Made by a program: the position numbers and the translations under genes
The notes under the pieces: generated by a model
The model's database searches: none
What the model saw: the letters and a program-made list of their open reading frames with translations, nothing else
Told to the model about the DNA's origin: nothing
NCBI GenBank assembly: GCA_026417155.1
Contig: JAOADU010000084.1
Coordinates: 1-54,378, forward strand
Source of the DNA: Bacteroidales bacterium
GTDB taxonomy: Bacteria > Bacteroidota > Bacteroidia > Bacteroidales > GWA2-32-17
Direction of reading: 5' to 3'
Length of the DNA stretch: 54,378 nucleotides
Shown: positions 24,299 through 54,378 of the stretch, piece after piece
Position numbering within the stretch: position 1 is the first letter of the stretch
How the letters are laid out: each line of letters begins with the position of its first letter

Positions 24299-24321
24299 AC
24301 CACTTGAACTAAAAAAGTGGT
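24299..24321 (+). promoter_or_regulatory. Hairpin at the start of the first ECF sigma factor
   Basis: Seven-base arms ACCACTT (24299-24305) and AAGTGGT (24315-24321) flank a 9-base loop, ending one base before the ATG at 24323. The helix would cover the ribosome-docking region and could limit translation. Function is inferred from position only. Confidence 0.45.
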
Positions 24322-24322
24322 T

Positions 24323-24910
24323 ATGAAAACAAATCATTTATCCGATAGTGAGCTCATTAAAGCTTACTTATCGGGAAACGAGGCAGCCGTTGTAGAAATT
24401 ATTAATCGTTACAAGAGAAAAGTTTATACCTACATCTATTACAGAATAAAAAATAAAGAAAAATGCGCCGATATTTTTCAGGAAACTTTTATTAAAGTTT
24501 TTAGCTCAATTAAAGAAAACAAATACAACGATGATGGCAAATTCATTGCCTGGATAATAAGAATTGCTCATAATTTAATTGTTGATTACATTCGCAAAGA
24601 AGATAGATTAAAAACAATTGCTTTAGACAACTATGATTACGATTTATTAAATAATAAGAAATTGAGCGATGTTCATACTGAAAACAAAATTATTAAAGAA
24701 GAAATACATCATGACATACGAAACCTTCTGGATTATTTACCTCCATCTCAGAAAGAGGTTGTAGTTATGCGTTTTTTCTTAGGAATGAGCTTTAAAGAAA
24801 TTGCTGAAATAACAAATGTAAGTATTAACACTGCTCTTGGTAGAATGCGATATGCACTCATTAACTTAAAAAAATTAATTGCACAATATCATATAGAAGT
24901 TGTTGAATAA
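24323..24910 (+). CDS. ECF-type RNA polymerase sigma factor (first)
   Basis: A 195-residue sigma-70 family protein with only regions 2 and 4. Region 2 covers about residues 8-95 (ELIKAYLSGNEAAVVEIINRY, then CADIFQETFIKVF for -10 recognition and FIAWIIRIAHNLIVDYIRK). Region 4 covers about 128-185 (LLDYLPPSQKEVVVMRFFLGMSFKEIAEITNVSINTALGRMRYAL), a clear -35-binding helix-turn-helix. No anti-sigma gene of the FecR kind follows; instead there is a 56-residue acidic protein and a rubredoxin. I start at ATG 24323; a GTG six bases earlier sits inside a hairpin arm. Target genes are unknown. Confidence 0.9.
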   Translation: MKTNHLSDSELIKAYLSGNEAAVVEIINRYKRKVYTYIYYRIKNKEKCADIFQETFIKVFSSIKENKYNDDGKFIAWIIRIAHNLIVDYIRKEDRLKTIALDNYDYDLLNNKKLSDVHTENKIIKEEIHHDIRNLLDYLPPSQKEVVVMRFFLGMSFKEIAEITNVSINTALGRMRYALINLKKLIAQYHIEVVE

Positions 24911-25423: not shown

Positions 25424-26017
25424 ATGAAAATAAACTGGCAAGATACAGAGAGTGTTAAGCGTTTGGTAGAAGGGTGCATTAAGGGCGATAAAATGAGTCA
25501 ACAGTTGTTGTACAAAACGTTCTATGGCAAAATGTTAGTAGTATGCATGCGATATACACAAAATAAAGAGGAAGCGCTTGACATTTTGCAAGACGGATTT
25601 GTAAAAGTTTTTCAGAAACTGAGAAACTTTGAACACAAAGGTTCTTTGGAAGGTTGGATTCGAAGAATAATGGTTAATACCGCCATTGACAGCATACGTC
25701 GAAAAAAAGATGTATTTGCAAAAACCAACGAAGAACTTGAACTGGATCAGTTTGTGGACGATACCTTTGACGACGAAGAATTAGAAAAGATGACGTTGCT
25801 GAAAGCCGAAATATTAATTGAACTCATCCAGCAATTAACGCCTGCTTATCGCACTGTTTTTAACATGTATGTTATAGAAAACATGACTCACGCCGAAATC
25901 GCACAACGACTAAATATAAATATTGGAACTTCGAAATCGAACCTTGCCAAAGCAAAAATGAAACTTAAAGAATTGTTTACTCAATATATTAAAACATACT
26001 ATCATGAAACGTTTTGA
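25424..26017 (+). CDS. ECF-type RNA polymerase sigma factor (second)
   Basis: A 197-residue sigma-70 family protein. Region 2 (about 10-95) holds LVEGCIKGDKMSQQLLYKTFYGKM, EALDILQDGFVKVFQKL and GSLEGWIRRIMVNTAIDSIRRKK; region 4 (about 135-190) holds LIQQLTPAYRTVFNMYVIENMTHAEIAQRLNINIGTSKSNLAKAK. This subtype is widespread in Bacteroidota. Its last 14 bases overlap the start of the membrane-anchored PKD/CHU_C protein, so the two are almost certainly translated as a pair, the usual layout for a sigma factor and its membrane partner. The genes downstream, including the giant adhesin, are candidate targets. Confidence 0.93.
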   Translation: MKINWQDTESVKRLVEGCIKGDKMSQQLLYKTFYGKMLVVCMRYTQNKEEALDILQDGFVKVFQKLRNFEHKGSLEGWIRRIMVNTAIDSIRRKKDVFAKTNEELELDQFVDDTFDDEELEKMTLLKAEILIELIQQLTPAYRTVFNMYVIENMTHAEIAQRLNINIGTSKSNLAKAKMKLKELFTQYIKTYYHETF

Positions 26018-27182
26018 AGAAATCATACAAGATAAACTCAACACTTTCGAATATCCTTACGAAGAAAATTCGTGGATTCAATTTAAACGAAAACAAACAC
26101 TTCGAAAGTGGACTCGCTTTACTGTAATTTCAGCTAGTATTATAATGGTTACTTCTGTTATTTTCTATATGCTAACAAATGAAAATAAAATAGACAAAAA
26201 TTCAACCAATACTACTCAAAATACAATACAAACAAACGTTAATAATAATGAAATAATTAATTATGCCCAACCACAAAACACAGAAAAATCGACGGAACGT
26301 AAACATCAAACACCTACTATCCATGATAATGTTACAAGTACTGTCGCCCTTCAGAATAACATACAAAATCAAAACTCTGCAAATAATACATTCGATATCA
26401 ATGATACCAAAAATTATTCAACAGAAATTAAATACTCTATTGGGCAAACTACTCAACAAGGATGTGTTCCATTAACGGTAGAATTCTTTGTTTTGAATCT
26501 GCCCAAACAGGCTACTTGCCTATGGAACTTTGGCGATGGTACCGTATCAGCAGAAATAAATCCAATCCATATTTTTACAAAACCTGGTAAATATAACATT
26601 TCGGTAAAAATAAATCTTGATGACCAAACATCAATACTAGTAGAAGACGCTAAAGTACAAGCATATGCTCAACCTATTGCTCGCATTTATGCTAAACAAG
26701 AAGGAAATACTATCGTATTCGAAAATCAATCAAAACAATTTAGCACAATATCATGGATTTTTGGCGATTCCATTCTCTCTGAGGAAACATGGAAATATCA
26801 ACCCAATCGTAGTGGCAAGTACAATGTAAAACTAATTGCCGAAAACCAATACGGGTGTAAAGACACTGCCAATAAAATTATAGATTTTACATATTTATTG
26901 CCCGTTCAATTTGCCGATGCCTTTACACCCGATGGTGACGGTGTAAATGATGTTTTCGGACCACAAGTAATGGATTTCTCATACTATCAATTCACCTTAC
27001 AAATCTACAACAAAACAGGCAAAATGATATATGAAACCAAAGGTAGTCCTGTTTGGTGGGATGGTTCTGATATTCATACGCGTCAAAATTGCCCAACCGA
27101 TGTATATTTTTATAAAGTTATAGCTGTTGATAAATTGGGCAATAAACAAGAATTTTCAGGTAAAATTCAGTTGATTCGTTAA
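26004..27182 (+). CDS. Inner-membrane PKD protein with T9SS type-B (CHU_C) tail, putative sigma partner
   Basis: A 392-residue protein with an unusual layout. Residues 1-37 are a charged, probably cytoplasmic segment (RFEEIIQDKLNTFEYPYEEN, then WIQFKRKQTLRKW); 39-57 are a single TM helix; 60-140 an Asn/Thr/Gln-rich periplasmic linker; about 142-215 a PKD domain (CLWNFGDGT); about 222-285 a second PKD-like domain (SWIFGDS); about 303-392 a gliding-associated C-terminal domain (FADAFTPDGDGVNDVF to the closing GKIQLIR). The N-terminus has no cleavage site, which is at odds with a tail normally found on exported T9SS cargo. Overlap with the sigma gene suggests an anti-sigma or sensor role. That role is inferred. 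Confidence 0.82.
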   Translation: MKRFEEIIQDKLNTFEYPYEENSWIQFKRKQTLRKWTRFTVISASIIMVTSVIFYMLTNENKIDKNSTNTTQNTIQTNVNNNEIINYAQPQNTEKSTERKHQTPTIHDNVTSTVALQNNIQNQNSANNTFDINDTKNYSTEIKYSIGQTTQQGCVPLTVEFFVLNLPKQATCLWNFGDGTVSAEINPIHIFTKPGKYNISVKINLDDQTSILVEDAKVQAYAQPIARIYAKQEGNTIVFENQSKQFSTISWIFGDSILSEETWKYQPNRSGKYNVKLIAENQYGCKDTANKIIDFTYLLPVQFADAFTPDGDGVNDVFGPQVMDFSYYQFTLQIYNKTGKMIYETKGSPVWWDGSDIHTRQNCPTDVYFYKVIAVDKLGNKQEFSGKIQLIR

Positions 27183-27756: not shown

Positions 27757-30700
27757 ATGAATAAACTATATTACTTAATAATAATTACTTTATTTTCATT
27801 AAAAGCTTTTTCTCAATGTTATAATTGTGGAAATATGTTTCCATCATCCGTGCAAACCATAACATGCGGAACTTCCACTACGGTAACCAGTTGTGCTTAC
27901 GGCTCAGAATATTCAGTCTATAACGTAGTTGCAGGAAATACTTATACATGGCAAACGTGTGGTGATACAGATTTCGATACTCAATTAACATTGTTTCAAG
28001 GAAGTACTTGTGGGGGAGGTACTGTCTTGTCGTACAATGATGATGCCTGTGGATTACAATCAAAAATTACTTGGACTGCAACATTTACAGGAACAGTAAC
28101 ATTATTATTATCAAAATATAATTGCACTTCACAATCTACCTGTATGACTTTACAATGGTCTTGTACATCAGGCGGTAGTGGTGGAGGAGGAACTGCGTGT
28201 CCCGGTGCCCCTTCATGCTCTTCTTCACCTCCAGCAAATGATTTTTGCTCAACACCTACTCCAATTTGCGAATTTGAAGGTTACTGTGGTAACACAAGTT
28301 CATCATATACACCAGGTGAAATTCCCTCTCAATTTTGTGGTTCAGTTGAAAATAATTCATGGATAAGTTTTGTAGCATCTTCTTCTACAGCAACTCTCAA
28401 TGTATATGTATGTAATTGTACAAATTCTTGGGGTATTCAAATGGAAATTTATTCTACTACAAACTGCGCTACATTTACTTCATATTCCAACTGCTGGAAC
28501 CCAGGAGTTATGCAAAATGGAACAGTAACAGCTACAGGCTTAACACCAGGTAATACTTATTTGTTAATGATTGATGGATATGCAGGAGATGTGTGTAATT
28601 ACACTATATCAGCTTCTTCAGATGTTTTTATGGCAAATGCTATTGTGCAACAAACCGGCACAAATACTGCCACTATTTGTGCTGGTCAATCAGTTAATTT
28701 ATTAGCTAGTGGCGGAACATCATATTCATGGACACCCACAACAGGATTAAGTAATCCAAATATAGCTAATCCTATCGCTTCCCCTACAACAACAACCACT
28801 TATACCTGTAATGTTACGGGAGGAAACCCACTTTGTCCTGGAACACAACAAGTTCAGGTAACAATAAACGTTACACCAGGATTAACAATAAATACAAGTA
28901 GCACTAATCCAACTTGTTTTGGAGGTAATAACGGAACAGCTTCTGTTACATCGGTTACAGGAGGCACTGCCCCTTATACTTATAATTGGAGCAATGGAGC
29001 AACAACACAAAATATAACTGGATTATCAGCAGGAACATATACAGTAACTGTTACTTCAGCAAATGGATGTACTAATACAGCAACTATTACAATTAGTAAT
29101 CCTCCCCAAATGACTGTTAGTGCAACAAGTACTCCATCTACATGCGGTAGTCCTAACGGGACAGTTACAGCTACTGTAACTAATGGAACACCCAACTATA
29201 CTTATACAATTACTCCTCCTGGAACCTCACAATCTTCGAGTAGTAATAATTATACCTTTAACAATATATCCAGTGGAACCTACACTGTACTCGTAATTGC
29301 AAGTAATGGTTGTACGGCTACAACAACGGTAAATGTTGCTTCATCTGGAAGTGTTACAGCAGGGTTCACATACAATGGTAATCAATGTGTTACAGGGAAT
29401 AGTTATAATTTCACAAATACAGGAACATCTGGCGGAGGCACCACCTATTCTTGGACATTCCCTGGTGGTTCGCCTTCAAGCTCTACTGCTCAAAATCCGA
29501 CTGGTATTACCTGGAGCACACCAGGAACGTACACGGTTACACAAACGGTTACACAAGGATCGTGTAATGCTACATATTCACAAAATATTACTGTTTATCC
29601 TAATCCAACAGCAAATATTACCCCAACTAATGTTACATGCTTTGGTGCTTGTAATGGTAGTGCCATTGCTTCGGGTAGTGGAGGAAGCGGAACTTACACT
29701 TATAGTTGGAGCACGGGAGCAAATACTCAAAATATCTCGTCTTTGTGCCCAGGTTCTTATACAGTTACCGTTACAGATACTTACGGTTGTAAAGGAACAG
29801 CCACTGTTAATATCACTCAGCCTGCTGCTTTAAATTTAACTACAACACGAACTAATCCAACCTGCAATGGTTTGTGTAATGGAACGGCAAATGTAACCGT
29901 TGCAGGTGGCATCGGACCATTTACATATTTATGGAGTAATGGAGCCACAACGGCAAGTATTTCTGGCTTATGTGCCGGCACATATACTGTTACAGTAACT
30001 GATCAAGCATCGCCCGGCTGTACACAAACAGCAAATGTTAATCTCACAAATCCTGCTCCTATCACATTATCAACATCTAAAGTTGATGCTTCGTGTGGTT
30101 TAAATAATGGCTCTGCAACCGTAACTGTAACAGGCGGTGGTACTCCTAATTACAATTATCAATGGTCAAATGGCACTGTTTCGAATAATAATCCTTCAAA
30201 TACTCATACCGCAACAGGGTTAACCTCAGGTTCATATACAGTTACAGTTACAAGTTCAAATGGTTGCACTCAAACAGCAACCGTAAATGTTGGAAGTACA
30301 GGAGGTCCAACTGCTACTATTACAACAAGTTCAAATCCCCTGTGTAATGGCGTTTGTAGCGGTAGTGCTACGGTAAGTATAGGGGGAACTTTAAATCCTC
30401 CGTACAATTACGTTTGGTCAAATGGTGCTTCAACTACAGGTACAACTTCTACTACTAACACAGTAAATACACTATGTGCGGGAACAAGCTCAGTAACAAT
30501 TACCGATAATATTGGATGTCAAGCTGTAGCAAGTGTTAATTTAACAGCACCACCTGCTTTAAATGTTGCAACAAGTAGTGTTAATGCATATTGCGGTCAA
30601 AATAATGGAAGTGCAACTGCAAATCCTACTGGTGGAACACCAGGATATACATACCAATGGTCGCCTTCGGCAGGTAGCCAAACCACACAAACAGCTACTA

Positions 30701-33700
30701 ATTTAACACCAGGAACCTATAGCGTTACTGTACGTGATGCAAATAATTGCACTCAAACCGCTACCGTCAATGTTGGTAATAATGCAGGTGTTACTGCATC
30801 AATTTCATCTCAGACAAATGTTAGTTGTTTTAGTGGAAATAATGGTACTGCTACTGCAAGTGGTACAGGAGGGAATTTGCCTTACACATATCAATGGCCT
30901 GCAAGTGCTGGAAATCAAACAACAGCAACAGCTACAAATTTGTCGGCAGGAACTTATACTGTAACTGTTCGAGATGCTAATAACTGTACTTCTACCGCAA
31001 CTGTTACCATAACTCAACCTACAGCAGTTTCTGCTACAATAAGCAGTTTTACAAATGCATTATGTAATGGCAGTTGTAATGGTACCGCTTCTGTGTTAGG
31101 AGGAGGTGGTACGGCTCCATATACTTATCAATGGTCGAATACACAAACCACACAAACTGCAACAGGATTATGCAATGGTACTTATTTTGTAACAGTAAGA
31201 GATGCTAATAACTGTACCGCAACAACTAGTGTTACAATAACTCAACCTTCGGTATTATCGGCAACTGCAAGCTCAACTAATGCTTATTGTGGACAAAGTA
31301 ATGGTAGTGCAACCGTTAATCCAACGGGAGGAACCTCTCCTTACACATATTCATGGAGTAGTGGGCAAACAACACAAACTATTACCAATAGACCTCCGGG
31401 ATCTTATACAGTAACAGTTACTGATGCCAATGGTTGTACTGCTGTTGCCAATACTGTTATAGGCAATAATCCTGGTGGAACAGCCAGCATTACTTCATTA
31501 AATTATACTACATGTTATGGCGTATGCAATGGTTCTGCTACAGTTTCTATGGGTGGGGGGACTCCTCCATATACCTATCTTTGGTCGAACGGAGGAAATA
31601 CAGCAACAATATCTGGATTATGTGAAGCTATCTATACTGTTACTGTAACTGATGCTGGCGGCTGTACTGCAACAGCTGTAGCTGATGTTAAGTCGCCCAA
31701 TCCGTTGGTTTTAGCTTTTAATGTAACCGATGTCTTTTGCTTTGGTCAATGTACGGGTCAAATAACTGTTACTCCATCAGGTGGCACACCACCTTATACT
31801 TATACTTGGAGCAATGGAAGCACACAATCGTCATTAAGTAATTTATGTAGCGGAGTCTATTCTGTAACTGTTCGTGATGCCAATAACTGTAGTGCAACTG
31901 GAAATAGAAGTATAAGTAATATCCCTCCTATAACTTTAAGTGCCACGACAACAAGCACAAATTGTAATCAATCTAATGGTTCTATTGATTTGACTGTTAC
32001 AAATGGGGCAGCACCGTTTACTTATAATTGGTCGAATGGAGCAAATACTCAAGACTTGAATAATATTTCGGCTGGAGTTTATAATGTTACCGTTACTGAT
32101 GTAAAGGGATGTACTGCAACAGGAAGCTACACTGTTACAAACATTAGTGGACCATCGGCAAGCATTTCAACATTTACACCAGTATCGTGTAATGGTTTGT
32201 GTAATGGCATAGCTACCGGTGTTGCATCAGGTGGCACAACTCCTTATACGTACGCATGGAGTAATGGTCAAAATTCTCAAACAGCAACCAATTTATGCGC
32301 AGGAACCTACGTATTTAGTGTAACTGACGCTGCCGGGTGCGTCGCAACTGCGAATGTAACCATTACACAACCACCTGTAATGCAGGTAAATAGTATTACT
32401 AGCACTCATCCTAATTGTAATGGACAGTGTAATGGTACCGCGACAGTAGTCGTAGGAGGGGGCACACCACCATATTCATACCAATGGACAGGAGGAACTC
32501 CTTTCGGTGGGCAAAATCCAACAAGTGCCACAACCACAGGTATTTGTAGTGGAATACTAACCGTTACCGTAACAGACTCAAAAGGATGCACCGTTACTGC
32601 AAATACAGCTGTTGTTGAACCACCAATTCTATCTCTTGTACCAAGTTCTACACCAGTATTATGTGCCGGTCAAAATACTGGTACTGCAAGTGTAAGTGTA
32701 AATGGTGGAACACCACCTTATACCTATCAATGGTCGGCAAATACTGGTGGACAAACTTCTGCTGTTGCAACCAATTTAGCTCCTGGAACTTATCAGGTTA
32801 CAGTTACCGATTCGAAAGGCTGTACGGTATCAATACCAGTTACAGTTTCAGGACCTACACCTTTAACATTTAGCAACATTACTTCTACCGATTTACCCTG
32901 TTATCAATCAAATAACGGAACTATTTCAGTAAGTGTTTCAGGAGGAACTCCTCCCTATTCATACAATTGGACAAATTCTACCAATAGCTATTCTTCTACC
33001 AATCAAAATATTGGGAATTTGCCCGCAGAGACCTATTTTCTAACAGTAACCGATGCAAATGGATGTATTATTACTACCAATGTTATCATCAATCAGCCTC
33101 CACCATTATCATTAAATTTAATAAAAACGGATGAAACGTGCTATCAATTTTGCAATGGTTCTATTCAAGCACATGTTTCAGGTGGTCAAATTCCGTACAC
33201 ATATTTATGGAGCAATGCACAAACAACTTCTGCTATTCAAAATCTATGTCCTGGAAGTTATAGTGTTACTGTTACAGATTTTAATGGGTGTACACGTGCT
33301 AGTAATGTTACTATTATTGGACCGCCATTATTGCAAATTGATGTAGTAAATGTTGTACCTGCAACTTGTGGACAATCGAATGGTGAAGCTACTATAAGTT
33401 TTCAGGGTGGCACTACAGGATACACCATACAATGGTCAACAGGTGGAAATTCCGTCCACGAAACAAATATGCCTGCCGGTAATCATACTGTTACTCTTAT
33501 AGATCAAAATGGTTGTATTGCCACTCAAAATATTACCATACAAAATTTAAACGGACCTAGTATCACGTCAGTTGTATCAAGCCCTGTAACTTGCTATGGT
33601 TATTCTAATGGGGTTGCCATTGTTAGTTATAATCCATCCAATCCACCTGCTCCTCCCTACACAACAACATGGAACAATAACATGACTGGTGATACCATTA

Positions 33701-36063
33701 CCGGCTTAGCTGGAGGTATTTATTATGTAACTGTACAAGATGCCAATGGTTGCATAAGTGCAGGAAATGTTGTAGTCCAAGAACCAACACAATTAACATC
33801 TGTTATTTCTTCCACTACTCATAACCTATGCAATGGTCAATGTATAGGAACCGCTAGCGTTTTAGCCGGTGGTGGTACTCCTCCATATATTTATACATGG
33901 TTAGGCATAGGTCAAACAGGACCTAATGCTGTTAATCTTTGTGCCGGCACATATAATGTTGTAGTAACAGATCAACGCGGATGCACTAGTACTAACGTCG
34001 CCATTATAAATCAACCAACACCTATCTCAATTCAAGGTAACATAACAAATGTACAATGTAATAATACATCAACAGGAATGATTTCTGTAACAGTATCAGG
34101 TGGAACACCCGTATATCAATATGTATGGTTGCCACCTGCTAACAGTACTACTTCAATTGCCGCAAACTTATCGGCTGGAGTTTACACTGTCGTTGTGACA
34201 GATACCTGGAACTGCACAAATACAGCAACATTTACTGTAACTCAACCCATGCCATTGCAGGCATATATTAGTACACAACCAGCCCGATGCGGATTGCAAA
34301 ATGGTATGGCAGTAATAGATTCTGTAACTGGCGGTACTCCCTCTTATAGCTTCTTATGGTCGCCAGGAAACATGAATACAAGTCAAGTAACAGATTTAAC
34401 TAGTGGTATATATCAGCTAATCATCACCGATGCTAATAACTGCACATTAGTCCAACAAGTACCCATAGGACAAGTACAAGGACCCGATGTAGTTCAAATG
34501 ACAAAAACCGAACCTACCTGCTATGGCTATTTTGATGGGACTGCTACTGCAAATCCAATTGGAGGTCAACCTCCCTATCAATTCATTTGGAATAATGGTC
34601 AAAATACAGCAACAGCTATTAATTTAGGAGCTGGTGTTTACACTGTTACTGTAACAGACGCAAATGGATGCACTAAAGCTAATACTATTCAAATAGGACA
34701 GCCTTCTCCTATCGTGCCCATCGCCAATGGCTCTGATACAATTTGTGTAGGCAATTTTTCTGTAAATATTTCTGCAAATGCAACCGGAGGTACGCCTCCA
34801 TATTCGTTTATGTGGTCAGGACCTGGTTTAACAAATCCTACTTCTGCTGTTCAACTTGTTTCTCCTGATACAACTACAAATTACTTTGTAAATGTTTATG
34901 ATGCCAACGGTTGTGCTTCGGCAAACCCTGCAAGCATTACTGTTTTTGTTTATCCTCCTATCACAGCAAGTATTTCAAATGATGTAATAATATGTAAAGG
35001 AGATGTGTATTCAATTAATGTAACTGCTCAGGGTGGTAAGCCTCCATACACTTATGTGTGGAATAATGGAGTTGGAAATCCAAACATGGTTTCGCCAACC
35101 CAAACAACAACTTATATTGTTAGTGTCTATGATGCTTGTGGTACGCCCCCTGCTATAGATTCTATGACCATTACGGTAAAAAATCCGCCTCATATTGTTC
35201 GCGATCCACGGTTCCAAAAAGGCTGTGTTCCATTAGGTGCAAATTTTGATTGCATTGTCGATCCTTCGTCATATCCTGTTACATATTCATGGAACTTTGG
35301 CGATCCTTCATCAGGAATGCTTAACTTCTCGAACGATAGCACACCATCTCACACTTATAATATCCCGGGCAATTATAATGTTACTTTAACTTTAACTTCT
35401 TCTTTTGGTTGTCAAACCACAATAACATATTATAATCTTGTACAAGTTTCTCCTTATCCACAAGTTGATTTTAGTTATAGTCCTACAAGCAATATTACTC
35501 CTGTAAACGGTGATGTTTGGTTTGCTGCTCAAACAGATCCCAACAATCTGCTCACTTGGATCTTTGGCGATGGTTACACTGCATCAGGAATAATGAATCC
35601 TATGCACACATACACACAAGCCGGTGTATATACCGTAATGTTAATTGCCCGAAACGCTGATGGATGCATGGATACAGCCATTCATATGCTTCGTGTTAAT
35701 GATATCTTTACTTTGTGGGCTCCTTCTGCATTTTCGCCAGGGAGTGGCAAAGCCAATGGCTACTGGTATCCAAGAGGATTGGGCATTGATAGTAGCGATT
35801 ATTATTTAGCTATCTATGATCGTTGGGGACAGGTTGTGTTTGAAACACGAGAAATGCCTAAAGGGACTAATTTAACCCCAAGCGAAGTAATGACAATTTC
35901 CGTTGCTAACCAAGAATGGGAACCTGGCGGATGGAATGGAGGATTTATGAATGATATGTCAAAAATGGTTCCTGTTGGATCGTATATTTGGTATGTCCGC
36001 GTAAAAGAAAAAGATACTGGATATTTACACGAACGCAAAGGGATTGTTACAGTAATTCGATAA
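27757..36063 (+). CDS. Giant SprB-repeat T9SS adhesin (2768 residues)
   Basis: A cell-surface or secreted adhesin. Residues 1-19 are a signal peptide. Two Cys-rich beta domains cover about 20-135 and 160-295, then an Ig-like domain (about 300-380). From about 380 to 2315 there are 24 SprB-type repeats of 74-84 residues (C..NG, then GGTPPYTYxWSNG, then GTYTVTVTDANGC), interrupted once by a PKD-like domain after repeat 2. Two Ig-like domains (2315-2480), two PKD domains (WNFGD, WIFGDG; 2480-2648) and a type-B C-terminal domain (2648-2768) follow. That last domain lacks the usual NGDGxND motif. SprB is the mobile gliding adhesin of Flavobacterium, but repeat similarity alone does not prove gliding. 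No PorP/SprF gene lies nearby. Confidence 0.9.
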   Translation: MNKLYYLIIITLFSLKAFSQCYNCGNMFPSSVQTITCGTSTTVTSCAYGSEYSVYNVVAGNTYTWQTCGDTDFDTQLTLFQGSTCGGGTVLSYNDDACGLQSKITWTATFTGTVTLLLSKYNCTSQSTCMTLQWSCTSGGSGGGGTACPGAPSCSSSPPANDFCSTPTPICEFEGYCGNTSSSYTPGEIPSQFCGSVENNSWISFVASSSTATLNVYVCNCTNSWGIQMEIYSTTNCATFTSYSNCWNPGVMQNGTVTATGLTPGNTYLLMIDGYAGDVCNYTISASSDVFMANAIVQQTGTNTATICAGQSVNLLASGGTSYSWTPTTGLSNPNIANPIASPTTTTTYTCNVTGGNPLCPGTQQVQVTINVTPGLTINTSSTNPTCFGGNNGTASVTSVTGGTAPYTYNWSNGATTQNITGLSAGTYTVTVTSANGCTNTATITISNPPQMTVSATSTPSTCGSPNGTVTATVTNGTPNYTYTITPPGTSQSSSSNNYTFNNISSGTYTVLVIASNGCTATTTVNVASSGSVTAGFTYNGNQCVTGNSYNFTNTGTSGGGTTYSWTFPGGSPSSSTAQNPTGITWSTPGTYTVTQTVTQGSCNATYSQNITVYPNPTANITPTNVTCFGACNGSAIASGSGGSGTYTYSWSTGANTQNISSLCPGSYTVTVTDTYGCKGTATVNITQPAALNLTTTRTNPTCNGLCNGTANVTVAGGIGPFTYLWSNGATTASISGLCAGTYTVTVTDQASPGCTQTANVNLTNPAPITLSTSKVDASCGLNNGSATVTVTGGGTPNYNYQWSNGTVSNNNPSNTHTATGLTSGSYTVTVTSSNGCTQTATVNVGSTGGPTATITTSSNPLCNGVCSGSATVSIGGTLNPPYNYVWSNGASTTGTTSTTNTVNTLCAGTSSVTITDNIGCQAVASVNLTAPPALNVATSSVNAYCGQNNGSATANPTGGTPGYTYQWSPSAGSQTTQTATNLTPGTYSVTVRDANNCTQTATVNVGNNAGVTASISSQTNVSCFSGNNGTATASGTGGNLPYTYQWPASAGNQTTATATNLSAGTYTVTVRDANNCTSTATVTITQPTAVSATISSFTNALCNGSCNGTASVLGGGGTAPYTYQWSNTQTTQTATGLCNGTYFVTVRDANNCTATTSVTITQPSVLSATASSTNAYCGQSNGSATVNPTGGTSPYTYSWSSGQTTQTITNRPPGSYTVTVTDANGCTAVANTVIGNNPGGTASITSLNYTTCYGVCNGSATVSMGGGTPPYTYLWSNGGNTATISGLCEAIYTVTVTDAGGCTATAVADVKSPNPLVLAFNVTDVFCFGQCTGQITVTPSGGTPPYTYTWSNGSTQSSLSNLCSGVYSVTVRDANNCSATGNRSISNIPPITLSATTTSTNCNQSNGSIDLTVTNGAAPFTYNWSNGANTQDLNNISAGVYNVTVTDVKGCTATGSYTVTNISGPSASISTFTPVSCNGLCNGIATGVASGGTTPYTYAWSNGQNSQTATNLCAGTYVFSVTDAAGCVATANVTITQPPVMQVNSITSTHPNCNGQCNGTATVVVGGGTPPYSYQWTGGTPFGGQNPTSATTTGICSGILTVTVTDSKGCTVTANTAVVEPPILSLVPSSTPVLCAGQNTGTASVSVNGGTPPYTYQWSANTGGQTSAVATNLAPGTYQVTVTDSKGCTVSIPVTVSGPTPLTFSNITSTDLPCYQSNNGTISVSVSGGTPPYSYNWTNSTNSYSSTNQNIGNLPAETYFLTVTDANGCIITTNVIINQPPPLSLNLIKTDETCYQFCNGSIQAHVSGGQIPYTYLWSNAQTTSAIQNLCPGSYSVTVTDFNGCTRASNVTIIGPPLLQIDVVNVVPATCGQSNGEATISFQGGTTGYTIQWSTGGNSVHETNMPAGNHTVTLIDQNGCIATQNITIQNLNGPSITSVVSSPVTCYGYSNGVAIVSYNPSNPPAPPYTTTWNNNMTGDTITGLAGGIYYVTVQDANGCISAGNVVVQEPTQLTSVISSTTHNLCNGQCIGTASVLAGGGTPPYIYTWLGIGQTGPNAVNLCAGTYNVVVTDQRGCTSTNVAIINQPTPISIQGNITNVQCNNTSTGMISVTVSGGTPVYQYVWLPPANSTTSIAANLSAGVYTVVVTDTWNCTNTATFTVTQPMPLQAYISTQPARCGLQNGMAVIDSVTGGTPSYSFLWSPGNMNTSQVTDLTSGIYQLIITDANNCTLVQQVPIGQVQGPDVVQMTKTEPTCYGYFDGTATANPIGGQPPYQFIWNNGQNTATAINLGAGVYTVTVTDANGCTKANTIQIGQPSPIVPIANGSDTICVGNFSVNISANATGGTPPYSFMWSGPGLTNPTSAVQLVSPDTTTNYFVNVYDANGCASANPASITVFVYPPITASISNDVIICKGDVYSINVTAQGGKPPYTYVWNNGVGNPNMVSPTQTTTYIVSVYDACGTPPAIDSMTITVKNPPHIVRDPRFQKGCVPLGANFDCIVDPSSYPVTYSWNFGDPSSGMLNFSNDSTPSHTYNIPGNYNVTLTLTSSFGCQTTITYYNLVQVSPYPQVDFSYSPTSNITPVNGDVWFAAQTDPNNLLTWIFGDGYTASGIMNPMHTYTQAGVYTVMLIARNADGCMDTAIHMLRVNDIFTLWAPSAFSPGSGKANGYWYPRGLGIDSSDYYLAIYDRWGQVVFETREMPKGTNLTPSEVMTISVANQEWEPGGWNGGFMNDMSKMVPVGSYIWYVRVKEKDTGYLHERKGIVTVIR
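28890..34710 (+). repeat. Array of 24 SprB-type coding repeats
   Basis: About 5.8 kb of degenerate coding repeats of about 225-250 bases, each giving one 74-84 residue unit; one PKD-like unit interrupts after repeat 2. Three subtypes can be told apart. Four-cysteine repeats are numbers 3, 4, 6, 9, 11, 12, 14, 15, 18 and 21. Short-headed two-cysteine repeats are 2, 5, 7, 10, 13, 19 and 23. Long-headed two-cysteine repeats are 1, 8, 16, 17, 20, 22 and 24. Confidence 0.9.
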
Positions 36064-41576: not shown

Positions 41577-43955
41577 ATGAAGCGATTTATTTTTATTTTT
41601 TGCGTTTTGAATTTCTATTATGAATTAGTTTATACTCAATTTTACAATTATGGTAGTGTATATATTGAAACTTCTGGTGCTGTTTACGTAACCACAGATT
41701 TCGCTAACGAATCTGGTGGAAGTATCAATAATTGGGGAACGATTTTATTGGGTGGCAACTGGGCAAACAACAATCCTAATAATCAAGTCTTTATTAACTC
41801 CAGCCCCGGCACTGTCAAACTTATTGGAGGCAATCAATTTATTGGGGGAACTAATCAAACCAAATTTTTTAATTTAAGTTTAGAAGGTACTGGTATCAAA
41901 ACATTACAAATAAATTCAGAAGTTGAAGGCACGTTATTTCTAAATGATAGAGAACTAGCCACAGATCAGAATATTATGTTTGTTTCAAATTCTTCCATCA
42001 GTGCAATTACCTTTACATCGGGCTTTGTGAGCAGTTTAGGTAACGGATATCTCAGAAGAGCTATGAATAGCACTTTGCCATACATTTTCCCAGTAGGATC
42101 TTCGTTAGGAACACCTCGATATCGTCCGGTTGAGCTCACTTCGAGCACCTCTGCAAATCAAATTATGGGCGTTAGATTTGCCAATACCGACCCAACTAAT
42201 GAAAGTTTTGATAGAACAATTACCGATGGACAGGTTGGTAATATTAATTCTTTATTCTTCCATAAAATTGAAAGAGTTTCTGGATCTGCCCCAATGACAG
42301 TAAGCATTTTCTTTGATTCTTCTCAAGATGGAACATTCAATGAAATAGCACACTGGGACGATCAGCCTTCTGCCAGATGGGAAGCTACTACTACAGCCAC
42401 GTTGAACAATGGAACACCGCTTAGTACATTAACCATCAATTCGTGGAACGATTTCACACATACACCATTTGCATTATATGGTTGTACGCCTTCAACTCAA
42501 CCTACAAATATTGTTGCTACTGATACTATCATTTGTGCAGGACAACAAGTTACACTAACGGTTCAAGGAGGAAGCTTAGGCAGTGGTGCACAATGGACAT
42601 GGTACACAGATAATTGTGGCGGTACACCCATCGGCACGGGAAATAGTATACAAGTTTCTCCTACTTCGACAACTACATACTATGTAAATGCTGTTGGCAG
42701 CTGTGGAACAACAGAATGTACTTATTTGAAAATAGAAATTAGCCAACCACCAGTCATTTCCATCAATTCAAATAGTCCATTATGTGTTGGGAGTACTTTA
42801 AATTTATCGGCATCGGGAGGCATACAATATCAATGGAGTGGACCCAATAATTTTACTTCGAACCAGGCAAATCCAAGTATTGCTAATGTTACATTACAAC
42901 ACGCCGGCATTTATTATGTTACAGTTACTAATGCCGAAGGATGTACAAGCACTGCTCAAATAACTGTACAAGTTTCTAATTTGCCTCAAGGTACTATAAG
43001 CCCATCACAATCTGTTTGCGAAGGACAAACAATTAGCCTACAAGCAAGTGGAGGAACAACCTACAATTGGGGCGGGCCTAATAACTTCAATCAAACAGGT
43101 GCAACCGTTCAAATTACTAATGCAACTACTGCCAATGCCGGAACTTATTATGTTACGATTACCAACAACGATGGTTGTAGCATAGTGCTCAATACAACTG
43201 TAAATATACAAGCCTCACCACAAGTCAGTGCAACATATTCTGGAGCTGCATGCGAAGGGAACTCTATCACATTACAAGCAAATCCTTCCGGAATGAGCTC
43301 ATATCAATGGAGTGGACCCAACAACTTTACCAGCAACATACAAAATCCTGTTATCAATAATGTATCATCTGCTTCAAGCGGCACCTATACCGTTACAATT
43401 ACACATTCATGTGGTACATCAACAGCAACTGTTAATGTTACCATTTACGAACGACCATCAATTTTAGGAATGAATACTAATAACGAAAGCTGTAAAGAAA
43501 TGAAAGACGGTCATATACAACCTAGCATAAGTGGCGGAACTTCTCCATTTACTTTTACGTGGAACACAGGGAGTACTCAACCTCAACTTGAAGGACTTTC
43601 GGAAGGTACTTACACGGTTACCATTTCTGATGCAAATGGATGTACAACTACTGGAACAGCAAATATATTACGCGGCGAACACGAATGCTTTTTTATTCCT
43701 ACCATATTTTCGCCTAATGGCGACGGGAATAACGATGTTTTATATGTGCGTGGGCACGGTATTAAAGAATTGTTATTCAGAATTTATGATCGATGGGGTA
43801 ATTTAATTTTCGAAAGCACAAGCCCACAAACAGGATGGGACGGAACATTTAAAGGAAAGCCTATGAACGCAGGAGCCTACGCTTATATCGTCAAAATAAA
43901 ATTTTATAACGGAACTGAAAAAGAAATTAAAGACAATATAACATTAATACGTTAA
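41577..43955 (+). CDS. T9SS type-B adhesin of module A (Ig-like repeats, SprB repeat, CHU_C)
   Basis: A 792-residue exported protein. Residues 1-20 are a signal peptide (ending VYTQ). About 21-305 is a beta-rich N-terminal region with no named domain. Then come four Ig-like domains (about 310-630); the second to fourth share a YxWSGPNNF or YNWGGPNNF core. A single SprB-type repeat (about 633-700, GGTSPFTFTWNTG and GTYTVTISDANGC) follows, and last a gliding-associated C-terminal domain (about 704-792) with intact FSPNGDGNNDV, FRIYDRWGNLIFES and final ITLIR. The tail is the signal for T9SS type-B export. The PorP/SprF protein four bases downstream is the expected outer-membrane partner. Confidence 0.9.
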   Translation: MKRFIFIFCVLNFYYELVYTQFYNYGSVYIETSGAVYVTTDFANESGGSINNWGTILLGGNWANNNPNNQVFINSSPGTVKLIGGNQFIGGTNQTKFFNLSLEGTGIKTLQINSEVEGTLFLNDRELATDQNIMFVSNSSISAITFTSGFVSSLGNGYLRRAMNSTLPYIFPVGSSLGTPRYRPVELTSSTSANQIMGVRFANTDPTNESFDRTITDGQVGNINSLFFHKIERVSGSAPMTVSIFFDSSQDGTFNEIAHWDDQPSARWEATTTATLNNGTPLSTLTINSWNDFTHTPFALYGCTPSTQPTNIVATDTIICAGQQVTLTVQGGSLGSGAQWTWYTDNCGGTPIGTGNSIQVSPTSTTTYYVNAVGSCGTTECTYLKIEISQPPVISINSNSPLCVGSTLNLSASGGIQYQWSGPNNFTSNQANPSIANVTLQHAGIYYVTVTNAEGCTSTAQITVQVSNLPQGTISPSQSVCEGQTISLQASGGTTYNWGGPNNFNQTGATVQITNATTANAGTYYVTITNNDGCSIVLNTTVNIQASPQVSATYSGAACEGNSITLQANPSGMSSYQWSGPNNFTSNIQNPVINNVSSASSGTYTVTITHSCGTSTATVNVTIYERPSILGMNTNNESCKEMKDGHIQPSISGGTSPFTFTWNTGSTQPQLEGLSEGTYTVTISDANGCTTTGTANILRGEHECFFIPTIFSPNGDGNNDVLYVRGHGIKELLFRIYDRWGNLIFESTSPQTGWDGTFKGKPMNAGAYAYIVKIKFYNGTEKEIKDNITLIR

Positions 43956-49697: not shown

Positions 49698-52600
49698 CGT
49701 TTCAAGATTAAATAACCACTTTTAATTAGTTTATTGCCTTTATACAACATGTAAAAATAGGTATCGTCGGGCAAATCATTTCCTCCTTTATCTTTTCCAT
49801 TCCAATTATTCAAATAAGGTTTGCTTTCATATACCAAATTACCCCAACGGTTAAACACAGATAATTGATAAGTATCGTCTATACCATTAATTTCAAAGAA
49901 ATCGTTTATTCCATCTCCATTAGGTGAAAAACCTTCAGGAACAACAATCGTATAAACTTTAATCAATACATCGTCGTAAACTTGCGGACAAACGCCATTA
50001 ACAACAGACCATCGCAAAATATTATCCCCTTCGGCCAATCCTGTAATTTGTGTATGTGGACTATGAATATCCACAAATGAAGCTTGTCCTGAAATTACCG
50101 TCCATGTTCCTACACCCACATTAGGATTGCTTGCATTCAAATAAACAGGCTGTGAAAGGTCGTAAATTATCTGATCGTCGCCAGCATAGGGTTGAGATGG
50201 TGCTTCGTAAAATGTAATGTATGTTTGATTGGTATCATAACACGGACCATTTGTTACTTCCCATATAATGGGAAATGTTCCATACTGGCTTGAGTAAACT
50301 TGAGCATTATGTAAATATACATTATTGCAAGTCATTGTTGGTGGCAAAATCCACCGACCAATACCCTCTACAGGAGGTTGTGCTTGTAGCGTAGCCGTCA
50401 ATCCGCACAATTCCATAGACGAAGAATGAGCTGCTATTGAATTAAAAGCCCATATACGGATAGTATCGTTTGGTAAGATATTTGAACAATTACTACTATC
50501 TGTTACTTGCACCAAATAAATTTCATAATAATTTTGCTGTAAAGGTGACACAGAAAAAATACTGTCGTTAGAATATTGATTAAACGAATAGTTGATTCCA
50601 TTAATAGAATAAGTAACATTCCAAGGACCATTGCCTTCGATATGAACATGAATATTAATTGATGAATTAAATGTTTTACAAATACTATCATTGTTTAGGT
50701 GCTCAAAAGTTACGTTCTTCTGTGGATTACAGTTAATGGTTATTATATTACTAGAAGAAGAACAATTATTTTTAAAAACATTACGTCTATATGACGTGCT
50801 TCCAATAATATAATTAGGCACATAAACAGGTTGATTGGCACCTGCAATATTTTGCCATTGATTATTTACCAACATTTGCCACTGATATGATACATTAAAG
50901 CCTTGTGTTGGAACAGATTCTTCTATCGGTAAAATACTTTGCCCGTAACAATAATCTGTTTGCGTCGTATTTATTTCATTCGATGGTAAATAAATAGGAT
51001 AAACCGAAATAATATTACTTGTATCTAAGCAAGCTCCCGATTCAATTATTCTAGCAAAATACACAGTATCCCAAATAGCAGGTGTAAGATAATTTTTTTG
51101 ATTATTAATCCCTATAGCAGGCATCCAATTAGCAGATGATGTGCTATAAATCCATAAATACGTATATTGATTGTTTCCACCCGAAGGCTGATTGATAAAG
51201 CTTCCTAAAGCAAGCATTTGACCAGAACATACTTCCACTATTGAAGATAATCCATGATTTGATTCAATAATATTGAGCAAAGGTGGTAAAATTTCGACAA
51301 CTACAACATTACTTGTGTCGGAACAGCCTTGTATTTGAATAATTCTGCGATAATAATAAAATTGATTGGAATAATCGGTAATGTAAAAATGATATATTAA
51401 TGATGTATCAACTGTTGACCAATTGAGAGAATCTAAGCTCATCTGCCATATTGTAGATACATTAGGAATGGAATTTTGCCCACCGATATCGCCTTCAGCT
51501 ACTGTACAATATTGAGCATAAATAAGCGTATCTTCAATAAAAATAGTATTACCCGCAATAGCGTTTATGATAATAATCTGAATGGTATTTGAAGTATCAT
51601 AACAACCATAGCTCGAAACAATTCGACGGTACAATGCTTGAGTGTATTGATTGGAAGGGAATATTGATGGAGTTTGTGCAGATAAATTCTGCCAGCCCGA
51701 ACCATAATTTACTTGCCAAAGGTACGTAAATGATGTATCTATAGTCCCTGTAATTGGCATTATTGAATCATTCTGGCAATATATTGTATCAGCTGTTTGT
51801 ATCTGATTAGTAAGCTGAATGACAGAAAAATGCAATACATTACTGGTATCTGCACACCCATTCCCAATAACTATTCTTCTAAAGTACCTTGGTGCATCTA
51901 CATACCAATTGTAGTTAGGATGCGAGTTAGGCAAAGGAGCACTAGTCCAATTTATACCATCAAAACTACTTTGCCATAAAAAATTAAATACCCCACTGCC
52001 AGTTGGTGTTGTTCCTGTTATAGCAATTGTAGAATGATAACAAACCTGAGCAGAACTATTGGTTTGAATGATATTGTTTTGAATATTCGTCTGTGGCGAT
52101 AAAGAAACCGTCGTTGTTGCAATACATGAATTATTGTCAGTTGCAACTATATTATACACGCCCGGACAAAGGTTGGATAAATTAGCCGGAGTTATTTGAT
52201 ATGGAGGGGTTCCGCCGGTAACATTTGCTGTAATACTTCCATTGCATGAATATTCACACGTTGGACTAGATACAATATAATTTATAGCTAAAGGTGGTGG
52301 TTGATCGATATTAATATAAGAAACAAGCTGACAGTTATTGGCATCAGTTATAGTTAAATAATACGTGCCAGCAAATACATTAGAGATAGCAGGCATATTT
52401 GTCCCGTTACTCCAAATGTAATTATAAGGCGAAACACCTCCCGTAACCGTTGCGTTGGCAAAACCATCAGATAAACCATAACATGTTACATCTGTTTTAA
52501 AAATATTTACCTGAATTTGTGGTGGTTGATTTACAACGACAGTATCGTAACGAACACAACCTTTACTATCACTAACTGATAAGAAATATATTCCTGCGGG

Positions 52601-54313
52601 CACATTATTTAAGTTTTGGGAAGTAACACCGTTATTCCATCCAAATGTATATGGGAGCGTGCCTCCGGTAACTGAAGTTTGCACTTGTCCGTTTAGACCA
52701 CCATAACAAGTTACATGCGTTACATTAAAACTTGTAACAATTGGTGCTACAGTTATTGTAACAATATTACTGGTATCAACAGTAGTTCCCGACGATAAGT
52801 AAACAAGACGACGATAATATGTAGTTTGAGTTAATATAGGAGGTTGATAATTTGGCTGATTATTTGTTCCAGGACAAGCACTCCAGGAGCTATAGTCGGT
52901 GCTGTATTGCCACAAATAAGAAAAATATAAGGGCGAACTTGTTCCTGTTAGTAAATTTGGTTGAATCCCAGGACATATTTGCTGATTAGCTTGTATTTGA
53001 TTATTATTTAGCAAACAATTTAATCTCAATAAAAAATTATTCGCAGCAATTCCATTTGTTCCATCTGTTCCTTTATATTGTGAACATGCATTACCTGCAT
53101 ACCCTTTGCTTATATTGATTGGTGGAACAGTAGGAGTAGAATAATAAACTACTCCACCACCACCTCCACCACCAGAACCTCTACACGACGAAATGGCATT
53201 ACTTGAACCACCATTCCCACCAAATGCACTTAAAGATAAATTTCCACTTATATTGAAAGCTGAAAGAACTATTGTTCCTCCTCCTCCCCCTCCTCCTGCA
53301 CTTTCATTTTGCGTTACATACGTTACTGTTTCGCCGTTAGCTTTTATCGAATAACTATTGGCAACAATATTTTTCGCAATAATAATTGCAATTCCTCCCC
53401 CATTTCCCCCATTCGAAACATCGTTAGGATATTGCTCAAAGGTACCAGTTCCGCCACCTCCACCAAAAAATAATCTCCCCCCATTAATTGTTTGGCTTAT
53501 TGAAAAATTTGTACCTCCTATTCCACCATAATTTTGTGTAACAGGGCATTGATAACTCTCTTTCCCACCATCGCCACCAATACCTCCATTTCCACCACCT
53601 CCTCCTGCCGAATTAATACCATTCCCTCCGCCTCCTCCGTTAGCATTTTTTCCTCTTCCGCGAGCATAAGCCAACGGTAACTTACTTACGCCTTCTCCTT
53701 TCAACCCCGCCGAATCGTAGCCATTCTGTGTATAAAAATAATTGTAAATATTGGCTTGATTAGAACATTTAAGCAATGTATTTACCTGAGGTGAATTAGC
53801 TCCTCTAAATCCTTTAAAGCTCACATCAATATCTGCATAAAGGGTTAAAGTTTCATGTACAAAGAGTACTAATACGCCACCTTTTTTTCCGTCCCATGCT
53901 GGACAAGTTAATGTGCCTGCTACTGTAGCGTTTACAAAATTTCGCACCCTTACTACCTGAAACATGCTATCGTTATACATGTTTTGCAACGGACAAGTTA
54001 AAGTTAAAATTTTATTTTGTGCATCTATTGATTGAATAATCGAAAAGTCGTAATTTCCTGCATTCCCTAAACTTATTATATCACCAAAAGTATTGTTATT
54101 AGCTTTTACAGTTGTTGCACCCTGTGCTTGATAAATAAATACCGTATCGCCTGGCTGAAAGATTGAAACTTGATTAACTTTAATATGAGTATAATTTATT
54201 TGCTGAATCCCTTCTGCATAACTATTTATTATTCCAGAAACTACAGTATTTTGTGCATCTATGATAGCAATTGAAAATGTGAAAAAAATGATTATGCAAG
54301 TTATTATTTTCAT
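49694..54313 (-). CDS. Large T9SS type-B adhesin with glycine-rich domain (module B)
   Basis: A 1539-residue exported protein. Residues 1-21 are a signal peptide (ending IDAQ). About 22-200 is a beta region (ISLGNAGNYDFSIIQ). About 210-410 is a very glycine-rich domain with four or more runs of five to seven Gly (GGGGGNGI, FFGGGGGTG, AGGGGGGGTI). Three SprB-type repeats lie at about 535-770, one of the four-cysteine kind. Six Ig-like units share a YxWQ core and YRRxV...C.DTSN; one lies before and five after the SprB repeats. Further beta domains and a gliding-associated C-terminal domain (FSPNGDGINDFF, VFNRWGNLVYES, final LILKR) complete it. I start at ATG 54313, two bases after the upstream stop. 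Confidence 0.9.
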   Translation of the reverse strand: MKIITCIIIFFTFSIAIIDAQNTVVSGIINSYAEGIQQINYTHIKVNQVSIFQPGDTVFIYQAQGATTVKANNNTFGDIISLGNAGNYDFSIIQSIDAQNKILTLTCPLQNMYNDSMFQVVRVRNFVNATVAGTLTCPAWDGKKGGVLVLFVHETLTLYADIDVSFKGFRGANSPQVNTLLKCSNQANIYNYFYTQNGYDSAGLKGEGVSKLPLAYARGRGKNANGGGGGNGINSAGGGGGNGGIGGDGGKESYQCPVTQNYGGIGGTNFSISQTINGGRLFFGGGGGTGTFEQYPNDVSNGGNGGGIAIIIAKNIVANSYSIKANGETVTYVTQNESAGGGGGGGTIVLSAFNISGNLSLSAFGGNGGSSNAISSCRGSGGGGGGGVVYYSTPTVPPINISKGYAGNACSQYKGTDGTNGIAANNFLLRLNCLLNNNQIQANQQICPGIQPNLLTGTSSPLYFSYLWQYSTDYSSWSACPGTNNQPNYQPPILTQTTYYRRLVYLSSGTTVDTSNIVTITVAPIVTSFNVTHVTCYGGLNGQVQTSVTGGTLPYTFGWNNGVTSQNLNNVPAGIYFLSVSDSKGCVRYDTVVVNQPPQIQVNIFKTDVTCYGLSDGFANATVTGGVSPYNYIWSNGTNMPAISNVFAGTYYLTITDANNCQLVSYINIDQPPPLAINYIVSSPTCEYSCNGSITANVTGGTPPYQITPANLSNLCPGVYNIVATDNNSCIATTTVSLSPQTNIQNNIIQTNSSAQVCYHSTIAITGTTPTGSGVFNFLWQSSFDGINWTSAPLPNSHPNYNWYVDAPRYFRRIVIGNGCADTSNVLHFSVIQLTNQIQTADTIYCQNDSIMPITGTIDTSFTYLWQVNYGSGWQNLSAQTPSIFPSNQYTQALYRRIVSSYGCYDTSNTIQIIIINAIAGNTIFIEDTLIYAQYCTVAEGDIGGQNSIPNVSTIWQMSLDSLNWSTVDTSLIYHFYITDYSNQFYYYRRIIQIQGCSDTSNVVVVEILPPLLNIIESNHGLSSIVEVCSGQMLALGSFINQPSGGNNQYTYLWIYSTSSANWMPAIGINNQKNYLTPAIWDTVYFARIIESGACLDTSNIISVYPIYLPSNEINTTQTDYCYGQSILPIEESVPTQGFNVSYQWQMLVNNQWQNIAGANQPVYVPNYIIGSTSYRRNVFKNNCSSSSNIITINCNPQKNVTFEHLNNDSICKTFNSSINIHVHIEGNGPWNVTYSINGINYSFNQYSNDSIFSVSPLQQNYYEIYLVQVTDSSNCSNILPNDTIRIWAFNSIAAHSSSMELCGLTATLQAQPPVEGIGRWILPPTMTCNNVYLHNAQVYSSQYGTFPIIWEVTNGPCYDTNQTYITFYEAPSQPYAGDDQIIYDLSQPVYLNASNPNVGVGTWTVISGQASFVDIHSPHTQITGLAEGDNILRWSVVNGVCPQVYDDVLIKVYTIVVPEGFSPNGDGINDFFEINGIDDTYQLSVFNRWGNLVYESKPYLNNWNGKDKGGNDLPDDTYFYMLYKGNKLIKSGYLILKR

Positions 54314-54315
54314 TT

Positions 54316-54378
54316 TCAAATAGTTTTTATCCAATTTGCTAAATTAAAATTATCAAAGTTGCCCGAACTCATAAGCAA
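54316..54378 (-). CDS. 3' end of a Mur ligase, probably Mpl (partial)
   Basis: An open frame enters from the right edge and ends at TGA 54318-54316. Its 20 visible residues include LLMSSGNFDNFNL. That matches the C-terminus I recall for Mpl (UDP-N-acetylmuramate-L-alanyl-peptide ligase), where E. coli has a similar MSNGGF sequence, so I suggest a peptidoglycan-recycling ligase. The stop is followed two bases later by the adhesin ATG, so module B probably continues this transcript. The identification rests on a short stretch. Confidence 0.5.
   Translation of the reverse strand: MLMSSGNFDNFNLANWIKTI

Follow-up and report, generated by a model that had tools for sequence, protein, structure and literature searches.

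Covariation of cysteine pairs in SprB repeats predicts disulfide staples between neighbouring repeats of Bacteroidota adhesins

The window, by which we mean the whole 54,378-nucleotide stretch of DNA analysed here, encodes a 2768-residue adhesin and two smaller proteins with SprB repeats. SprB is the gliding adhesin of Flavobacterium johnsoniae; gliding adhesins are required for gliding and move along the cell. The window adhesin is built from an N-terminal region, an Ig/PKD-like domain, 24 SprB repeats, further Ig/PKD-like domains and a weak CHU_C tail (20.6 bits in the domain scan, under the cut-off of 27). Its first 300 residues are rich in Cys, and one PKD-like domain separates repeats 2 and 3. 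The protein scores 602.6 bits against Pfam PF13573 (cut-off 28), with 24 matching stretches. Throughout, the first Cys of a repeat is called a, the Cys at a+4 is b, the Cys before the final hairpin is c and the last Cys is d. Repeats with all four are referred to as four-Cys repeats, and those with neither b nor c as two-Cys or plain repeats. The adhesin features that are needed below are as follows.

27757..36063, + strand: 2768-residue adhesin, 2768 codons (ORF and domain scan)
28915..34671, + strand: 24-repeat SprB array, from the first Cys a (residue 387) to the last Cys d (residue 2305) (Cys listing)
29638..29790, + strand: four-Cys repeat, residues 628-678, b 632, c 664
29863..30021, + strand: four-Cys repeat, residues 703-755, b 707, c 739
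30343..30519, + strand: four-Cys repeat, residues 863-921, b 867, c 907
31063..31215, + strand: four-Cys repeat, residues 1103-1153, b 1107, c 1139; domain 1 of the AlphaFold2 model
31288..31437, + strand: two-Cys repeat, residues 1178-1227; domain 2 of the AlphaFold2 model
31513..31665, + strand: four-Cys repeat, residues 1253-1303, b 1257, c 1289
31738..31890, + strand: four-Cys repeat, residues 1328-1378, b 1332, c 1364
32188..32340, + strand: four-Cys repeat, residues 1478-1528, b 1482, c 1514
32416..32589, + strand: four-Cys repeat, residues 1554-1611, b 1558, c 1597
33139..33291, + strand: four-Cys repeat, residues 1795-1845, b 1799, c 1831
33829..33984, + strand: four-Cys repeat, residues 2025-2076, b 2029, c 2062
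34744..35667, + strand: post-array domains in which the a/d pattern goes on, Cys 2330, 2386, 2413, 2461, 2490, 2552 and 2637 (assigned by eye)

These Cys bounds agree with the array limits of 28890-34710 given in the original prediction. Along the 24 aligned repeats, the four-Cys, short-loop and long-loop types follow one another in the same order in the window adhesin and in a same-genus relative (L309), which indicates that the repeats retain their identity and have not been homogenised. Cys class is identical at 24/24 aligned positions of the two arrays.

The other two SprB proteins lie further along the window and are each adjoined by a PorP_SprF gene.

43491..43643, + strand: single SprB repeat of a 792-residue protein, two-Cys class (Cys listing)
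43960-44970 and 48786-49697: PorP_SprF genes, adjoining the 792-residue and 1546-codon proteins
49694-54334, - strand: 1546-codon protein (1539 residues if a later ATG is used)
52556..52708, - strand: SprB repeat 1 of the 1546-codon protein, two-Cys class
52331..52483, - strand: SprB repeat 2 of the 1546-codon protein, two-Cys class
52124..52258, - strand: SprB repeat 3 of the 1546-codon protein, four-Cys class

The 1546-codon protein has three PF13573 stretches (69.1 bits, cut-off 28). The single match in the 792-residue protein (43473-43577, 33.8 bits) is missing from the separate protein domain scan. A CHU_C domain is the type B tail of type IX secretion substrates; matches to it exceed the cut-off of 27 in both proteins, at 60.4 bits for the 792-residue protein and 78.6 bits for the 1546-codon protein. 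PorP/SprF-type neighbours are expected, because such carriers anchor these proteins; the accessible part of one article describes SprF as anchoring SprB (PMC12635249). There are 15 PorP_SprF matches genome-wide, and no PorP/SprF-type gene directly adjoins the large adhesin among the ten neighbours scanned. Two sigma-70-like genes with ECF family matches (24317-24910 and 25424-26017) lie immediately upstream of the genes for a PKD/CHU_C protein (26004-27182) and the adhesin.

From this DNA alone it had been proposed that b and c occur only together, as a second disulfide that sets one of two repeat classes apart. When every Cys in the window was listed, b was found in 10/24 adhesin repeats and c in the same ten, 14 residues ahead of d (16 for the repeat that starts at residue 703). 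The remaining 14 repeats have neither, and all 24 keep a and d. One repeat of the 1546-codon protein has both b and c and two have neither, as does the lone repeat of the 792-residue protein. The rule thus holds for 28/28 window repeats (11 both, 17 neither, 0 single). Given the margins and independent columns, this outcome has a probability of 1 in 21 million, a figure that carries little weight on its own because the repeats are related by duplication.

We surveyed SprB repeats in the window's genome, in regions from its family, class and phylum, and in 80 named genome loci, using 201 records in all (2,911,327 bases, window included). The best-scoring PF13573 matches determined which regions were picked, and part of the window array containing both classes served as the query for the named loci. 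Because the sample is uneven and favours strong, window-like matches, the share of four-Cys repeats cannot be read as their true frequency. The short search loci (L001-L059 and L220-L276) were excluded, and longer stretches cover them only in part. A profile of 80 columns, made from the window repeats and rebuilt once, found 4,336 repeats (4,141 unique), with a at column 15, b at 19, c at 51 and d at 65. Full-span repeats, defined as those covering columns 12 to 70, numbered 4,009 (3,821 unique) in 237 proteins. Some genomes were apparently sampled twice (L150 and L292 show the same class order), and counts based on the 4,009 include these duplicates. Cys a is present in 92.3% and d in 94.4% of the 4,336 repeats. 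One 3.9 kb contig labelled Woesearchaeota archaeon (L168) also encodes SprB repeats; it is probably a Bacteroidota contig in the wrong bin.

Across the full-span repeats, 356 have both b and c, 5 have b only, 1 has c only and 3,647 have neither. One repeat was scored as having both because its c is displaced by an insertion (L195). Repeats with a single Cys of the pair, if numerous, would have refuted the proposal of a second disulfide, and they amount to only 6/4,009. Each of the six has a peculiarity: four (L100, L145, L160 and L133) lack Cys at column a and have their sole A-B loop Cys aligned at b, one (L183) has b without c and two other Cys at columns 56 and 70, and one (L173) has c without b and a Cys in the loop after column 39. 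Among unique repeats with neither column gapped (3,953/4,141), the counts are 355 both, 18 b only, 1 c only and 3,579 neither; many of the 18 are fragments or have their sole loop Cys aligned at b. Shuffling within proteins (1,000 times) gave a mean of 344.6 and a minimum of 310 discordant repeats, compared to the 6 observed. Plain repeats are also present in 48/50 of the proteins that have the four-Cys class.

A rule of this kind could also reflect shared ancestry only, with one old four-Cys type spread by duplication and no constraint on the columns themselves. Four-Cys repeats do cluster within arrays (neighbour association OR about 43) and by lineage, with 0/644 in the sampled repeats of family code f7. 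When b and c were masked, the nearest relative in another protein was itself a four-Cys repeat for 153/338, far above the class share, so shared ancestry also matters. For the other 185/338, however, the nearest relative lies outside the class. Clustering at 60% identity left 246 four-Cys clusters out of 2,036, against 3 b-only and 1 c-only. Aligned arrays provided 589 position comparisons in which the class switches and 0 in which one Cys switches alone, with the reservation that these comparisons overlap and that positions were matched by similarity. Finally, in a mean-field coupling analysis of 3,429 unique tandem pairs (effective number 2,628), 19-51 ranked first within repeats (z 67.6). 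The same pair still ranked 18/2,080 once every tandem pair with a b or c Cys had been removed, so the columns are coupled even where neither is Cys. We consider ancestry alone a highly improbable account. The best reading of the b/c covariation, which remains a reading of sequences, is a putative b-c bond inside the repeat.

An attempt to count joint gains on a tree was abandoned, since the 902 rows of short repeats were too weakly resolved. The best tree has 95 changes, a number inflated by the poor resolution. Supported branches yielded 4 independent pairs, with b changing in the same direction in 3 and no difference in 1. Shuffles and nearest relatives were used instead for this reason.

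The division into two classes only was too coarse, because rarer extra Cys are also often paired, though less strictly than b and c. Among the 3,821 unique full-span repeats, 3,012 have a and d only and 315 have a, b, c and d. The other extra pairs found beside a and d are 8/69 (13 unique repeats), 56/70 (12), 40/42 (7), 24/46 (6), 6/69 (5) and 36/59 (3). These pairs are leakier: column 69 has Cys without 8 or 6 in 5 repeats, 70 without 56 in 6, and 8 without 69 in 3. Columns 8-69, 24-46 and 56-70 also couple strongly. Odd numbers of Cys occur as well, with three in 149/3,821 unique repeats and five in 9. In 75 unique repeats, a lone extra Cys beside a and d lies at column 57, which is usually Val in strand F; it is perhaps a buried free thiol.

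The weightier result concerns the constant cysteines, which most likely join neighbouring repeats. The lead came from repeats that are missing a or d, among which a d-only repeat often precedes an a-only repeat. We compared a of each repeat (n) with d of the following one (n+1) over 3,584 junctions and found both in 3,499, a only in 10, d only in 28 and neither in 47 (OR 587, p 4e-77). With two conserved Cys per domain, the first reading would be that a and d form the repeat's own disulfide, to which b and c add a second one in the same domain. That arrangement agrees with the presence of a and d in more than nine tenths of repeats and with a weak association of the two in the same repeat (OR 2.6, p 0.012), an association that is dwarfed by the one across the junction. 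Odds ratios at offsets -3, -2, -1, +2 and +3 are 1.3, 16.9, 4.7, 0.9 and 4.3, and we attribute the values at -1, -2 and +3 to periodic arrays, without a test of that attribution. When d was shuffled within proteins (2,000 times), joint losses averaged 12.1 and reached at most 21, compared to 47 observed, and there were at least 132 mismatches, compared to 38 observed. The 47 joint losses are spread over 22 proteins from 22 loci. They are not all independent, as several fall in arrays of three-repeat units and three family f1 proteins look orthologous. Four of the 47 have a linker Cys, and in three the second repeat has a Cys within columns 60-72.

Array ends also speak against a bond between a and d of one repeat. 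The first repeats of arrays with at least 3 repeats (n=219) lack d alone in 40 cases and a alone in 7, with both kept in 167, while the last repeats (n=219) lack a alone in 24 cases and d alone in 2, with both kept in 192. Arrays are bounded here by the profile and by locus ends, and some are cut by a locus end. For end repeats that retain both Cys, the partners would have to come from flanking domains of other families.

The 38 mismatched junctions are for the most part offset by Cys nearby, with a substitute Cys identified by table in 31 and a displaced or mis-columned Cys recognised by eye in 7. Where only a is absent, 20/28 junctions have a linker Cys, against 45/3,499 normal junctions, and 3 more of the 28 have an A-B loop Cys off the column. 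Where only d is absent, an extra Cys lies at columns 16-18 in 8/10, against 14/3,499 normal junctions; these 8 come from just two loci, L143 and L147. In both loci, repeats whose following neighbour has lost its d have a C-x2-C motif in the A-B loop, as though a then found a local partner instead.

Four-Cys repeats without a provide information on which Cys pair with which. All five that we found retain b and c and are followed by a repeat without d, although three of the five look orthologous. These repeats fit a(n)-d(n+1) plus b-c, not a-c plus b-d, and the swapped pairing is disfavoured on this ground. The b+c pair is present in 10/115 repeats lacking only d, 5/112 lacking only a and 341/3,773 with both a and d.

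Family code f7 arrays L090, L099, L111 and L116 consist largely of three-repeat units (one repeat with d only, one with a only and one with both), which would leave roughly one junction in three without a staple. These unstapled junctions are possible built-in hinges. We also tried the staple test on Ig_7-type domains, but the profile drifted into SprB repeats (560, 4,323 and 4,512 matches) and gave no separate result.

The coupling analysis identified n:15 to n+1:65 as the top inter-repeat coupling (z 30.9, against 6.2 in the reverse direction). After removal of symmetric array effects its z was 25.3, followed by n:76 to n+1:63 at 4.3, and both of these pairs lie at the junction. Within one repeat, by contrast, 15-65 ranked only 522/2,080 once pairs with a b or c Cys were set aside. 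Couplings 8-69/71, 10-71/73, 13-73/75 and 16-75/76 indicate that strand A runs parallel to strand G. This puts a near the end of G and d ahead of its start, at opposite ends of the strand. Cys a and d would accordingly occupy opposite poles of the domain, a placement that rests on strand order and coupling and on no Cys-Cys distances.

We predicted the structure of residues 1089-1241 with AlphaFold2 using 89 partner pairs, from 141 chosen without b or c Cys. The two-repeat model (pLDDT 97.5, pTM 0.84) has six strands per repeat, which in the first repeat span 4-11, 21-28, 35-38, 46-50, 53-60 and 66-73. In this model a falls in the A-B loop (residue 15) and d just before strand G (65). The canonical Ig disulfide connects strand B to strand F in one domain. 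SprB repeats do not meet this arrangement, as their Cys lie in the A-B loop and before G and hardly covary within the repeat. Taking strand order, coupling, array ends and the junction association into account, we regard a repeat's own a-d disulfide as very unlikely; the part of the original prediction that concerned b and c is supported, and a(n) is matched instead with d(n+1).

We propose that SprB repeats are Ig-like beta-sandwich domains strung as a rod, in which Cys a, in the loop between the first two strands, would face the next domain, and Cys d, just before the last strand, would face the previous one. A bond from a(n) to d(n+1) would staple nearly every junction covalently beside the linker. 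A minority of repeats (356/4,009 sampled) would add a b-c bond, with c in the turn before strand F, and this second bond may tie down the loop that bears staple Cys a. We infer that the purpose is to keep the stalk stiff and resistant to pulling, the effect that calcium linkers have in RTX adhesins. The pairing by covariation, its persistence in proteins with repeats of both classes, the order of strands in the predicted model and the contact-like coupling of both pairs are direct observations. The disulfide state in the secreted protein and the stiff-stalk purpose are inferred, with no disulfide chemistry or Cys-Cys distances behind them. With that inference included, we hold the staple model, comprising a(n)-d(n+1) staples and optional b-c bonds, with considerable confidence.

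For the window adhesin, the staple rule predicts bonds 387-519, then 463-603 and 544-678 through the PKD-like domain, followed by 628-755, 703-837 and onward to 2178-2305 and 2255-2386. Cys1103-Cys1227 is the predicted staple that joins repeat 1178-1227 to its preceding repeat. By eye, the last PKD-like domain has d (2637) and lacks a, with no later Cys, and Cys 2499 has no obvious partner.

Cys residues could also serve as metal ligands, be modified or be redox-active rather than form structural disulfides. The spacing of b close behind a (C-x3-C) and the C-x2-C variant in L143 and L147 are of the kind that such roles would have, and no known family of disulfide oxidases turned up in the genome: when window genome G000, which is 94.5% complete and rich in SprB repeats, was searched at E 0.001, DsbA, DsbB and VKOR were all without a match. 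VKOR occurs in 1/10 genomes of the window's family. The oxidant that would form the proposed disulfides is thus unidentified. Against these roles, Cys are gained and lost in twos and not in fours, an argument that does not cover metal ligands that co-vary. We find this possibility barely credible next to disulfide staples.

PF13573 describes the same family, and 24 + 3 window stretches match its model. Neither pairing is visible there, because matches to the 37-position model end before Cys c and Cys d. Family code f7, whose 644 sampled repeats lack the four-Cys class, may include Flavobacterium, but that membership is a guess, and F. johnsoniae SprB itself is outside the sample. The top structural match of the two-repeat model is GhpA, grappling hook protein A of Aureispira (PDB 9flw, 9flx, 9flu and 9fls), with Z 9.3 and an rmsd of 4.3 over 145/153 residues that include both domains. 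The structure match alone is not distinctive, because NCAM2 Ig domains tie at Z 8.9. GhpA stands out by its sequence profile (E 1.9e-27), with Cys at a-like and d-like places in the printed stretch; judged on that profile, and at about 20% identity, it is the closest solved relative found. Bonds between domains in GhpA, if reported, would be a precedent in a relative and are the main risk to novelty. In Siglecs, one interdomain disulfide connects the neighbouring Ig domains D1 and D2. That is a single bonded junction, compared to the proposed relay along the whole SprB array.

Other long adhesins reinforce their repeats in different ways. RTX adhesin extender domains are tandem beta-sandwiches, like SprB repeats, with calcium in the linkers that rigidifies each junction, according to the portion of the source available (PMC7493085). 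They belong to another family and another secretion route, and they use calcium, not a covalent bond. The giant adhesin of Mobiluncus mulieris has 51 Ig-like repeats with covalent cross-links within domains and a flexible interdomain linker, as far as the accessible text describes (PMC10619420). Its cross-links are also covalent and in Ig-like repeats, but they are intradomain, unlike the proposed SprB staples. Disulfides formed by SprF or PorG with GldK, described in the available part of another article, belong to the machinery for gliding and secretion by which SprB is carried, not to adhesin repeats (PMC12635249). SprB is listed among modelled repeat families in the accessible part of PMC8078820. 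We found no description of Cys pairing in SprB repeats or of staples between repeats in the open-licence literature, including the available portions of PMC12635249, PMC9870892, PMC8078820, PMC7698502, PMC10619420, PMC12618676 and PMC7493085; this absence is weak evidence.

In these results we see a likely covalent relay in a large class of Bacteroidota surface adhesins, in which nearly every repeat would be disulfide-bonded to the next. Its Cys are lost together with the neighbour's partner or replaced nearby, and losses at array ends mostly affect the outward-facing Cys. We are less sure of this general statement than of the staple model itself. The SprB family would gain a concrete disulfide map, which predicts free thiols at construct ends. 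A construct of one repeat would be left with two Cys lacking partners, with a risk of misfolding or dimerisation. Long adhesins have to project from the cell and withstand load, and the solutions described in the source material available are calcium linkers, intradomain covalent bonds and pilus assembly. A disulfide staple at each junction, if true, would be another load-bearing solution, in which pulling force is shared by staples and linkers and the optional b-c bond is a second lock on selected junctions. The stiffness of the stalk could then be tuned one junction at a time, and redox state could make it softer. Whether such stiffness matters for gliding could be tested directly through the staple model.
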